The translations under genes were made by a program, and so were the position numbers. DNA of 33,759 bases from Deltaproteobacteria bacterium (GTDB taxonomy: Bacteria > Myxococcota > XYA12-FULL-58-9), in contig JACRCV010000014.1 of NCBI GenBank assembly GCA_016218825.1, positions 1-33,759 on the forward strand, read 5' to 3'. The notes below the pieces were generated by a model. The model was given only the letters and a program-made list of their open reading frames with translations, was not told where the DNA came from and made no database searches. The first letter of the stretch is position 1. Every line of letters begins with the position of its first letter. Of the stretch, positions 5,028 to 10,136 are shown piece after piece.

Positions 5028-8000
5028 TCACCAGCCCTTGAGCCCGATGCTCAGCAACACGCCCTGGCCCTCGCCGTCGGCGCTCTTGTGCTTCGCCACC
5101 CCGAGCGTCGCCTCGAGCTCGGCGTCGCCGAGCTTCTTGGTGACCCCGATCTCTGCGTGTGCACCGACGACGGGTTGCTTGACGCCGTATGCGTCCCAGC
5201 CGTTGGCGCTCGCGTAGGCGCCGGCGCGCACCGCCCAGCTGAAGGCGTCGCTCTCCTTCTGTCCATACATCAGGCTCAGGTCGGCGGCGGTCGGCAGATT
5301 GAGCTCGCCCGGCAGCGGCACGTTGCCGAGCTTGGCGTCGCCCAGGATCTTGAGGCGCAGCGACGAGTACGGCTCGAGACCCAGGCTGGCGATGAGCGTG
5401 CGCTTCTCGCCCACGTAGCCGACGTTGCTCGCAAGACCCCAGGCCGAGGGGTTGGCCTTGTCGCGCGCCGCCCACGACAGGCTCGGCTCGCCGAAGACCG
5501 CGTCCGGGATGCGGAAGACGAGGTTGCCGTCGACGCCCGGCGTCAGCCGGCCGAGCATGAGGGTGTTGCCCTGGAGATGGACCCCCGGAACGATTTGGTA
5601 GAGGTCCACCGGCGCCGGCGTCATCGCGCTCATCAGGCCGTGCAGCTGGCGTGTGGTCTCGGTGAGCACCTTGGAGACCGACGGCTCGAAGAACTGGGCG
5701 AAGAGGCCGATCTGCGGGCTCTCGATCGACAGCTTGCCGAGCGGCGTCTCGTAGCTCGCGCGCACCTTGCCGCGCCGAGTGGGATCACCCACTGAGAGCG
5801 TGGCCTGATTCTTCGTGATGGTGGCGTAGGCCGTGAGCGCCGCGAGGTTCTCGAACTGGATCGAGTACTTGTCGGTCGCGAACGACGCGGTCAGGTTCGA
5901 CGAGCCGTCGCCGGCCGGCTCGAGGATCAACGCGAAGCCGCGGGTGTCGCCGGTATACTCCTGGAAGCGGAGCGCGAGGTTGTGAATGTCGGCGATCGAG
6001 AGGTTGTAGGTCTTGCCGCCCTGTGTCGCGCTGATGCTCCCCGACAGCTCGTGGATGACGACGCCCTTCTCGGGATCGAGCCAGATGTCGGCGTCGAGGT
6101 TGCCGATCTTCACCCGCTCCTTCGCCCGGGCCAGCGTGAGGTCCAGATCCTGGGTCGCGAGGCGCCAACGACCCGACGGCTCGAAGTACACGCCCAGCTG
6201 GCCGGCCGAGAGGGTCGCGTCCAGATCCCGGGCGACGACCCTGAGGTTGCCGCCTTCGGGGATCTTCAAGGTGAGCTCGCGGAATTCCTTGCCCTGCTCG
6301 TCGAGGCCCAGATGCGCCGCGAGCCGGTCGCCGTCGCGCGGACACTTGACGATCAGGCGCAAGTCAGCGCTCACCTTGGTGACGTCGAGGTTCTGCAGCT
6401 GCAGGGTCACGCTCTGAAGCACGTCGCCGGTCGCCTTGTCGACGACGATGTCGAGCCCCTCGATCGTCCCCTTGATGTCGAGCTTCTTCTCGAGATCGAG
6501 CTTCTCGAGCTCGGCCTTGCCGACGTGCAGCCACATCTTCGTCGTGCTCGCGCCGAAGTTGGCGTCGTGGATCTGAGCGGTCAGGCCCTTGCCGGTGATC
6601 TCGAGCGCGCCATCGGTGAACGACCCGGTCACGGGCGAGCCCTGCAGGTACGAGAGCTGCAGGTCCTTGACGCTCCCCTTGACCGACGTGTTCTCGACGG
6701 TGATCAGCCCCTTCGAGCCGAAGTCGAACGCGGTGAGCGCGCCGGCGGCGTCGGTCTTGGCCTCGAGCTTCTCGATGTCGTCGAAGCGCAGCACCGTGCC
6801 GCCGCTCGTGACCTTGCCGGCGGCGGCGTTGAAGGTGAAGGCCTGGCTGCCGTCGGCCGCGACCACGAGCTTGGCGCCCATGCCCCCGGCGACGTCGATG
6901 CGGGTCTCTTTGCCGGCGGGCGAGGTGCCGCTGTAGCTGAAGGTCTTGCCGGCGAAGTCCGCCTGGCTGATGCCGCCCTGGGCGTCGCAGATCACGTTGA
7001 TCTGGGCGCCGGTCGCCGTGACCTTGTTCTGCTTGCTCGCGAGCTCGAGGCTGTCGCCCTTGACCCTCAGGGTCTTCGCGAAGCCGTTCTCGTAGGTCGC
7101 GTCGAGCGTCACACCGGTGCCGGAGATCGTCTCGCCCTTGGTGCCGGTGTAGGTCGCGCGGCCCAGCGTGGTCTGGGCGTGGGCGAGCGAGCCGTCCGGG
7201 TTCCAGTCGAGCACCGCCTTGGCGTCGACCGCCTTCAGCATCGCGCCGCGGCGGTCGGTGTAGGTGAACGTCGCCGACACCAGCTCGCCGTGTTGCAGCT
7301 GACCGGCGTTCGCGAGCAACGTGATCTTGGTGCCGGTCCCCTCGACCTTGGAGCCGTTCGCGAGCAGGCCGGTGATGCTCCCCACCTCCACCGTGCCCGC
7401 CTTGAACAGGCCGTTCTGATCCCAGTCGATCGTGCCGTTCGCGCCCTGCATCGTCCAGGTGCCGCGGCCGTCGTCGAAGCTGCCGCCGCCGTTCTTCAGC
7501 TCCAGGTGATGCATCGCGCCATTGGCGCCGTAGGCGATGATGAACTCGGTGCCGGCGTTCAGGGTCACGGTCTTGCGGCCGTCGATGAACGACAGCGTGC
7601 CGTCACCCACCTTGCCGGAGATGCTGGCCACCTTGCCGTCGGCGCCGTAGACCATGCCGAGCTCGCCCTGGCCGGTGAGCCTCAGGCGCCGCGACCCGTC
7701 GACGAAGGTGGTGTCCTTGATGCTGCCGACGACCCGGTCGATCTTGTTGTCGGCGCCGTAGTACACGCTGAGGCTCGTGCCGCCGGAGGTGAGCGTTCGC
7801 CCGCTCGCGTCGGTGTAGCGCAGCCCGTTGCCGGTCACGTCGAGGCGCTGGATGTTGCCGGCGGCGTCGTAGGTCGCGACCAGGCCGAGCGGCCCGTCAG
7901 CGTGGAAGGATCCGGTCGGGAGCTGCAGATCGGTCTGCTCGGTGAATATCGTGACCTGTGACCCGGCCGCAGTGCTCACCACCTGGAGCTTGGCCTCGCC

Positions 8001-10136
8001 GCCGATCTTGAGGTGCTGGTCGCCGCTGCGGACGTCGACGTCGCTGGCGGCGATCGTCATCGCGTTCGCCTGCGCCTGACCGTTCGCGTCGAGGGTGCGG
8101 TCGAGCTGGAGGCGCATCTCGCTGGCGCGGATCGAGGTCGAGCCGAGGTGGGCGTCGACCGGTCCGACCCCCACCCTCACGGTCTCGGTGCCGCCGTCCC
8201 TGCTGTTCACCAGCACCGCGTCCGACGCCGAGATGCTGGTGTCGCCGTGCACGTACGAGACTGCCGCGGCGCCGAGCAAGGTCTGGGTGTCGCCGACCTG
8301 CTCCAGGCGGGCGTTGGTGAGCACGGTGACGCCGCCGCCGCTCTTCGTGAAGTCGAAGCGTGCCTCAGCGGCGCGGATGACAGCGGTCTCGGCGGTGCGG
8401 TTGACCTCGGCGTGCGCCCCGACGACGGCGACGTCGCGATCCGGGCCGCTGAAGGCCACCGAGGCGAAGTCGATGAGATCCAGGCCGCCGCCGAAGCGCA
8501 CCGTGCCCTGGTCGGCGATGATCTGCTTCTCGCCGTGGTCGCCGTAGACGGCGCGGATGAGCGGCCCGGAGGCGACGTAGGCATCGCCCTCTTTGCGGAT
8601 GTAGCTGTCGGCGCCGAGGAGGATCTGGGTGTTGCCGTTCTGCCACACCTGCGGCGTCGCGAGGTGGTACTCGTCCGCCACGCTCACGGTGGTTCCGGGC
8701 TGCACCGTCGCGAGGCCGGTGCCGACCGCGCCCCCGAGGGTCTGACCGAGCCCGCCCGGCAGCCCCGCGAGCGCGGTGCCGACACCGGCGTTCAAGGCCG
8801 CCAAGTCCTGGTCGGTCACGGTGTACGCGCCGCCGAAGAGCTCGGGCAGCTTGGCGTCCGCCGCCGCGGCGTTGTGGTTGTAGGTCCGGAACAAGGCCGC
8901 ACCACCGCGCGCCAGGCCGTAGGGCGCGTGCTCGGCGCCGGCCTTGAGCACGTCGTTGAGCGCCACGAAGCCCTGGCCGACGGTGTCGAGATCGAGGTTG
9001 GGCCGGCGGCCGTTGCCCGCGGTCGGCAGGTGAACGTCTTCGGCCCGCGGCTGGCCTTCGACGCGGCCGACCGACGGTAGGGTGACCGGGGCAACGTCGG
9101 GCGTCGGCAGCGGCGCCTTGAAGTCCACGGGGTTGCCGTGCATCGCCCTGTCCAGCCGGTCGAGAATGGCGCCGATGTAGTGGATGTCGCGGCCGCCTGG
9201 AGGCGCCGAGATCGACGGCGTCGCGGTCACCGGCCACAACCCGAAGCCGCGCCGCGATACCTCGTCGTATCGCCCGGCGAGCGCCACGCCGTTCTTGTCG
9301 AGCTTGACGCGGTTCACCCCGAAGTAGTGGGTCTCGAAGCGGACCTGCTCGAGCGCGTGACAGGTGCTGCGCAGGTTGAACGCGACCTGCGCCTGGGCCG
9401 CGGACAGCGCCGCGCCTCTCTTCGGGGCAATCACCAAGCCGACGAGCCGCTTCTCATCAGGGAAGTACGTTTGCGCTTTGGCCACCGCCTCGATCGTGAG
9501 GCCGTAGCCCTCGGCCGCGGCCTCGATGAGCGCGTCGCGGGCGTGATCGAGCGCCACCCACGCCTGGGTGTCGTCCAAGCGCAACGTCGCCAGATCGCGC
9601 GCCAGCGCGAGCAGCGCCGAGCGCGCTGCATCGAGGGCGATCGGCTCCGACACCCGCCCGGCTTCGAGAATGGGGGTGAGCGCGCGGGTGAGCGCGTCCT
9701 CCCGCGTCTTCAGCGCCGCGAGATCCGCCGCGGAGATGGCGCGCCCCTGCTCGCGGGCCTGCTTGCCGCGGGTGAGCGCCGCGCGCACCGCGCGGTTGAT
9801 GTCGGCCAGGATCCGGACCGCCTTGAGATCGTCCTCGTCGGCTGCGGCGACCTGTTTGGGTTTCGGGCCGCCGACCACGAAGGCGTCGGCGGTCGTCACG
9901 TTCACGGCGCCGGCGCTCGCGAGCTTCTTCCGCAACCCGGCCTTCTCACCGCGCACGAAGGTCGCCGCCTTGGCGTCCTTGGTCCCGACCTTCCCCTTCG
10001 CTTCGCTGGCGCCGGTTGCCGTCGTCCCGGCGACGTCGGTCTCGTTGTCGACGCGCCCAGTCGTCAGGTCGGTGTTGCCGACCTTCGACCCCGCCTTCGG
10101 ATCATTGCCCGCGCCCGTGACCATTCTATGCAACAC
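5028..10136 (-). CDS. Giant beta-repeat protein with possible C-terminal outer-membrane barrel, unknown function
   Basis: I do not recognise this 1702-residue protein. Residues 1-95 are polar, rich in Lys, Ala, Gly and Thr, with no visible Sec signal. Residues 100-340 look helical. From about 480 onward the chain is almost entirely alternating beta strand. About ten tandem units of roughly 37 residues occupy 748-1120, with the pattern G-T-x-L-x-V-x-Y-x-A-D-G-K-I. Longer lipid-transfer-like or OstA-like strands follow. The last 150 residues are amphipathic strands with turns, ending in Trp ([11 protein letters not shown]), as many outer-membrane barrels end in an aromatic residue. The lack of a signal conflicts with an outer-membrane site unless another export route is used. 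The GTG at 10136 opens the frame; ATG 10124, preceded by GGGGTG, is an equally likely start. It is an isolated gene, 71 bp after ampG and 88 bp before icd. Confidence 0.85.
6777..7895 (-). repeat. About ten tandem ~37-residue beta repeats in the giant protein
   Basis: Units begin near residues 748, 786, 823, 862, 899, 936, 972, 1009 and 1044, counting from GTG 10136. Each has a strand with Y or W, a D-x-x-G or A-D-G-K turn, a second strand, then a Gly/Asp-containing turn (F-x-D-G) and a strand ending in T-G or similar. Spacing is 35-41 residues. The units are diverged at the DNA level, so this is an old protein repeat rather than a recent DNA duplication. Confidence 0.7.

Follow-up and report, generated by a model that had tools for sequence, protein, structure and literature searches.

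How does a protein whose C-terminus resembles an outer-membrane barrel come to lack any visible signal for export? The question is raised by a giant gene of an uncultured Myxococcota bacterium, located in a window of 33,759 nucleotides (the whole stretch of DNA analysed here), which is the complete contig 106 of the source genome (G000; 6.54 Mb in 121 contigs, 96.5% complete). An earlier note, made from the letters alone, had described a 1702-residue beta-repeat protein with a barrel-like C-terminus and had suggested that it belongs to the cell envelope.

The reading frame is open for 1724 codons, up to an in-frame stop at about position 10203, 22 codons beyond the GTG start. Its position-specific GC content (0.66/0.48/0.94) follows the same pattern as in the neighbours ampG and icd, and homologues conserved in the same frame are kept by four other genomes. 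Based on frame, codon GC and homologues, the open reading frame is a real gene, and its product is a real, unusual protein that the earlier note had described correctly. Long spurious frames do arise from high-GC DNA and many antisense open frames overlap the gene. Nonetheless, a chance open frame or a misassembly is at odds with the codon GC pattern and the intact frame and is refuted by the conservation at protein level in four other genomes; we give it next to no chance. The native codon GC also rules out a recent foreign origin, and a phage, plasmid or viral origin was rejected after no match was found among viral contigs, phages and plasmids. Promoter and terminator scans around the gene gave nothing above chance, and no paralogue was detected in the source genome at its 96.5% completeness. 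The gene, the parts of its product and its two neighbours are listed in Table 1.

Table 1. Coordinates in the window of the giant-protein gene, the regions of its product and the adjacent genes.
Feature	Position	Strand	Description	Basis
Giant-protein gene	5028..10136	(-)	1702 aa from GTG; ATG at 10124 is an alternative start	ORF limits, codon GC, in-frame homologues
Residues 1-95	9852..10136	(-)	Polar, basic, G/T/A-rich tail, presumably disordered, without signal peptide	Composition, hydropathy; G004 and G005 relatives likewise without signal
Residues 96-480	8697..9851	(-)	Presumed helical N-terminal module, common to the G005 relative only	Alignment; profile search matches G000 and G005 only; helicity inferred from sequence
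Residues 485-751	7884..8684	(-)	Beta-rich flank ahead of the repeats	AlphaFold model from residue 505; homologous to G005 N-part, in pieces to G004
Residues 752-1085	6882..7883	(-)	Degenerate ~37-residue beta repeats (clear: four units, 752-902)	Periodicity against shuffles; model; LptD N-jellyroll match
Residues 1110-1520	5577..6809	(-)	Best-conserved, non-repetitive beta region, at least partly in all five members	Profiles
Residues 1521-1702	5031..5576	(-)	Barrel-like C-terminus ending LLSIGLKGW	Amphipathic strand count, terminal motif; porin matches of the homologous G005 model part (low confidence)
AmpG-family muropeptide transporter	10208..11527	(-)	Upstream neighbour	TIGR00901, 491 bits
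Monomeric NADP isocitrate dehydrogenase (icd)	2705..4939	(-)	Downstream neighbour	TIGR00178, 1250 bits

The gene had been called isolated. This holds across genomes: when the context of the homologues was compared, as the earlier note had proposed, the neighbouring genes differed in every carrier and the order ampG, giant, icd was conserved in no relative. It needs qualifying within the window, where the three genes follow one another on one strand, about 71 and 88 bp apart.

Elsewhere in the window, an acyltransferase-like gene (condensation/WS-DGAT superfamily) adjoins an HpnB/CruG-like glycosyltransferase gene (150-2704, minus strand); the acyltransferase-like frame listed at 676 aa is too long, its first part overlapping the glycosyltransferase. 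A second giant open frame, P0002 (18999-23144, minus strand), encodes at most 1381 aa, or about 1230 aa from the likely start MPRPAKVDSIG. It has beta- and barrel-like stretches, no signal peptide visible from that start and no match in Pfam, NCBIfam or PADLOC; it shows no sequence relation to the 1702-residue protein and was rejected as its paralogue. P0003 (15655-18963, plus strand) is probably a lipoprotein, with LTASACTG close to the N-terminus, and is made of two similar surface-protein-type halves; it has no Pfam match.

Searching Myxococcota genomes with tblastn (146 genomes) and profiles (195 genomes), we found four relatives in 195 genomes, giving a family of five members with pairwise identities of about 20-33%. 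The G004 relative has 1192 residues. The G005 gene (JASMKV01, Myxococcota bacterium Arabian9_MAG_24) is seemingly split across two contigs that overlap inside the repeat, and the G029 relative (JAUHYN01, 3_bin.68) comprises the C-terminal 600 residues. The fourth, in a genome of the same family as the source genome (G002), has diverged and is encoded by an open frame (L018 5009-11152, minus strand; 2048 residues or more) whose 5′ end lies off the contig; here a helical stretch and then another barrel-like one come after the part conserved in the family, together with a weak match of parvulin type (Rotamase_2, E 7.6e-5). Weak matches in G003 and G006, considered as distant members, both proved to be carB. 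In the same-genus genome G001 (86% complete, site covered) the gene next to ampG is convergent and unrelated, and searches did not find the giant; the giant gene is thus accessory. Judged from the genome sequences searched, the family is rare, accessory and belongs to Myxococcota. The suspicion that no described family has this architecture is supported: the family is small, and searches of the open literature returned no description of it.

The repeats had been counted as about ten units of roughly 37 residues between positions 748 and 1120, which is fair as a degenerate series: four units can be recognised by eye and the remainder degenerate towards residue 1085. Over residues 735-1130 the top self-similarity lag is 37, with a score of -0.23, where 100 shuffles reached -0.26 at best. 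The G005 relative shows lags of 36, 72, 108 and 144 far above shuffles, and lags of 54, 90 and 126 are raised too, which corresponds to a half-period of 18 residues, roughly the length of a hairpin. A repeat HMM built from the G005 units fails to find the units of the giant, and one built from the four units of the giant finds its own seeds only; autocorrelation is the single line of evidence for the period of about 37 residues in this protein.

An AlphaFold model of residues 505-1702, built with three sequences, reaches pLDDT values of 70-84 only over residues ~624-1134 and is poor beyond. Structure prediction, which the earlier note had suggested as a check, thereby upholds the beta-rich architecture, with repeats that form continuous, LptD-like beta structure; for the region beyond about residue 1134, including the C-terminus, confidence is poor. 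For residues 923-1136 of the predicted model, VIA ranks the LptD N-terminal jellyroll first among PDB chains (Z 13.9, 175 residues aligned, rmsd 3.9 Å, 9% identity), and the next folds, OspA variants and MORN1, follow at Z 9-9.6, about 4 units lower. The model thus supports a repeat region built like LptD, in line with the rough likeness to OstA/LptA-type strand repeats noticed from the sequence. Comparison with viral structures gave weak fibre-like and MORN matches only.

At the sequence level, the giant has no significant match in Pfam, NCBIfam, PHROGs, PADLOC or PDB sequences, whether searched as a single sequence or with profiles; a strong profile match to a known family over most of the length, which would have spoken against novelty, was looked for and none was found. 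OstA/LptD models did not match the giant at E up to 1 in Pfam or NCBIfam, nor the other members in Pfam, and no autotransporter profile of Pfam or NCBIfam matched the giant. Among the features expected of LptD/OstA, the N-terminal jellyroll fold is present in the predicted model, and a Sec signal and a sequence-model match are lacking; the Sec signal and profile match expected of type Va autotransporters are both absent. The transmembrane anchor expected of AsmA/TamB proteins is not seen near the N-terminus, the maximum KD19 of the whole protein being 1.28, at residue 445. AsmA/TamB chains are not among the VIA matches listed, which carries no weight either way. By the tests run, the giant falls outside all three families, LptD, AsmA and the autotransporters.

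The Foldseek matches raise the idea of an Rhs/Tc-like cocoon, in which the beta repeats would form a shell round a cargo and the protein would be delivered to other cells. Teneurin-4 ranks first and TcdB2-TccC3 third, but these top matches, like ApoB, superpose poorly, with TM-scores of 0.06 and rmsd above 40 Å. Rhs proteins can lack signals. YD repeats have a period of about 21 residues, against a spacing of 37 and a half-period of 18 here; no YD-repeat or Rhs-core model of Pfam or NCBIfam matched the giant, and the carriers have no type VI secretion system (T6SS). Residues 730-853 gave a weak tblastn match (4.8e-4) to an Rhs protein in G135; this is an ordinary YD-repeat protein with a single weak local match, and kinship was rejected. 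We consider such a cocoon very improbable.

The N-terminus bears out the two statements made about it, that no Sec signal is visible at either start and, by composition and hydropathy, that the first 95 residues are polar. Kyte-Doolittle hydropathy averaged over 12 residues peaks, within the first 70 residues, at 0.35 for the giant, 0.75 for G004 and 0.67 for G005; a PhnD-like protein of the same window, which does bear a signal, reaches 2.7. Hydropathy revealed no hydrophobic N-terminal stretch or Sec signal at any possible start of these three proteins. The in-frame stop upstream leaves no room for a signal peptide ahead of the giant, so a missed one, which the earlier note had named as a possible objection, is ruled out. 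The check on relatives covers G004 and G005, the N-termini of G002 and G029 lying beyond the contig ends, and the Sec signal is absent in every relative with an available N-terminus.

The C-terminus tells a different story. The last 200 residues of the giant contain 10 amphipathic strands compared to 6.4 +/- 1.3 in shuffles (1 of 200 reaches 10). All four C-termini available have 9-10 such 10-residue strands in their last 200 residues against 5.7-6.6 when shuffled, an excess that is plain in three of them but slight in G029, where 17 of 200 shuffles reach the count. The BAM signal (terminal F and hydrophobic residues at -2, -4, -6 and -8) is matched by G005 and G029 and nearly by G004. The barrel-like, aromatic-terminated C-terminus described earlier is therefore upheld in its strands and its terminal W, but this W is off the BAM pattern by one residue. 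A model of the C-terminal half of G005 has a pLDDT of 44 overall and of about 50 in the last 195 residues, and in this low-confidence model the latter stretch resembles outer-membrane barrels, OmpF and AlgE among them, with Z ~9 (9.3); the porin likeness may serve as a lead and is not proof. The barrel-like stretch of G002 lies inside the protein, with more than 1000 residues after it. The conserved lack of a signal, this internal stretch and the low confidence of the C-terminal models leave the placement in the envelope not borne out.

Barrels of the outer-membrane type are thought to depend on both BAM and Sec export. If a conserved family combines BAM-type C-termini and an LptD-like groove but carries no signal, either its export route is one not yet recognised, or barrel-like beta folds are at work in the cytoplasm.

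With its long beta groove and barrel-like tail, the giant looks like an outer-membrane lipid-conduit protein. It could be one, spanning the periplasm with an LptD/AsmA-like lipid groove closed by an outer-membrane barrel; its export would then depend on a signal hidden inside the sequence or on a route not yet recognised. The lead of about 4 Z units of the LptD jellyroll over the next unrelated fold, the porin and AlgE matches of the G005 model and the groove-then-barrel order, as in LptD, speak for such a conduit. The missing signal peptide and N-terminal membrane anchor do not, and no OstA, LptD or AsmA model matches by sequence. Moreover, a gene that is rare, accessory and missing beside the ampG of a same-genus genome is unlike essential envelope machinery. 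We regard this explanation as unlikely.

Alternatively, the protein may stay in the cytoplasm, where its amphipathic sheets would coat or bind a hydrophobic body, as an ApoB-like lipid belt, or act as a scaffold. This agrees with the missing export signal in the relatives of known N-terminus and with G002, both in its internal barrel-like stretch and in its weak parvulin-like match. ApoB100 is found among both the Foldseek and the VIA matches, though superposed very poorly, and three genes from the giant there is an acyltransferase belonging to the WS/DGAT-condensation superfamily, though its score is far under the family cut-off and no such neighbour was seen beside the other relatives. The F-terminated, BAM-type C-termini of the relatives and the low cysteine content do not fit a cytoplasmic protein. 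A cytoplasmic role is possible, if doubtful.

If the giant is exported, the secretion systems of its carriers may indicate how. The T6SS component TssC is absent in all five carriers (G000, G002, G004, G005 and G029) and present in three of four tested genomes without the giant (G003, G006 and G007; small numbers), which excludes T6SS as a common delivery route. FHIPEP-family export genes are found in all five carriers. Since non-carriers have them too, the link to type III export is circumstantial. SctV, the export-gate protein of the non-flagellar type III system (T3SS), scores above the curated cut-off in all four carriers tested (G000, G002, G004 and G005). In G000, sctV (L054 9164-11431, plus strand, contig 66) stands alone beside a PP2C-like phosphatase, a 287-aa open frame and ribosomal protein genes, and no other T3SS genes were recognised in these housekeeping surroundings. 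No genome searched has a match above cut-off to an SctC-type secretin. A T3SS* without a needle, serving a different purpose, is known from Myxococcus (PMC12075869).

Cysteine makes up 0.18% of the giant, 0-0.24% of three of the four relatives and 0.44% of G002, compared to 0.78% in a small background set. Low cysteine is usual in exported proteins; FlhA and SctV are cysteine-poor as well, so the low content is not specific to export.

On balance, we tentatively take non-Sec export, with type III as a candidate route, as the leading explanation. The absence of a signal in the giant, G004 and G005 while the C-termini look OMP-like argues for it, as do the low cysteine content, the lack of TssC and presence of FHIPEP/SctV in carriers, and the LptD-jellyroll-like fold. 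FHIPEP genes in non-carriers, the lone SctV of G000, the missing secretin, the internal stretch of G002, the poor C-terminal models and the needleless system of Myxococcus count against it.

Under non-Sec export, the giant would be made without a Sec signal. Behind its disordered N-terminal tail, beta structure would run unbroken for ~1200 residues and form an LptD-like groove, and an OMP-like barrel or barrel-like sheet would come last. We infer that it would exit the cytoplasm unfolded by a non-Sec route, for which the polar N-terminus and the gene content of the genomes suggest type III-type export, and would fold outside, groove and barrel acting at a membrane of its own or of a target cell. 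In a bolder version, the family would insert in a membrane, possibly that of another cell, via a type III-like route, the LptD-like groove-plus-barrel being an injected or externally folded lipid conduit; we hold this to be a long shot.

Several known systems share parts of this anatomy. OspA-type single-layer sheets and MORN-repeat proteins have a comparable continuous hairpin array, but are far smaller and differ in repeat length and sequence; in the predicted model, their matches appear to reflect the common arrangement only. The idea of a long beta groove is shared with AsmA/TamB/YhdP, as presented in PMC6791001 and PMC8593681, whereas the giant has neither their N-terminal membrane anchor nor a profile match. 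Classical type V autotransporters likewise end in a barrel-like C-terminus behind a long beta passenger. A type Va autotransporter consists of a Sec signal and a 12-strand C-terminal barrel; the giant lacks the Sec signal, its passenger-like part is a jellyroll-like array and not a right-handed helix, and no autotransporter model matched. LptD differs in its signal peptide, its sequence, its much shorter beta region and its 26-strand barrel, for which the ~180-200 residues of the barrel region look too short, and the giant is accessory in distribution. The two are nonetheless alike in placing a groove first and a barrel-like part last, and in the jellyroll-like fold of residues 923-1136 of the predicted model.
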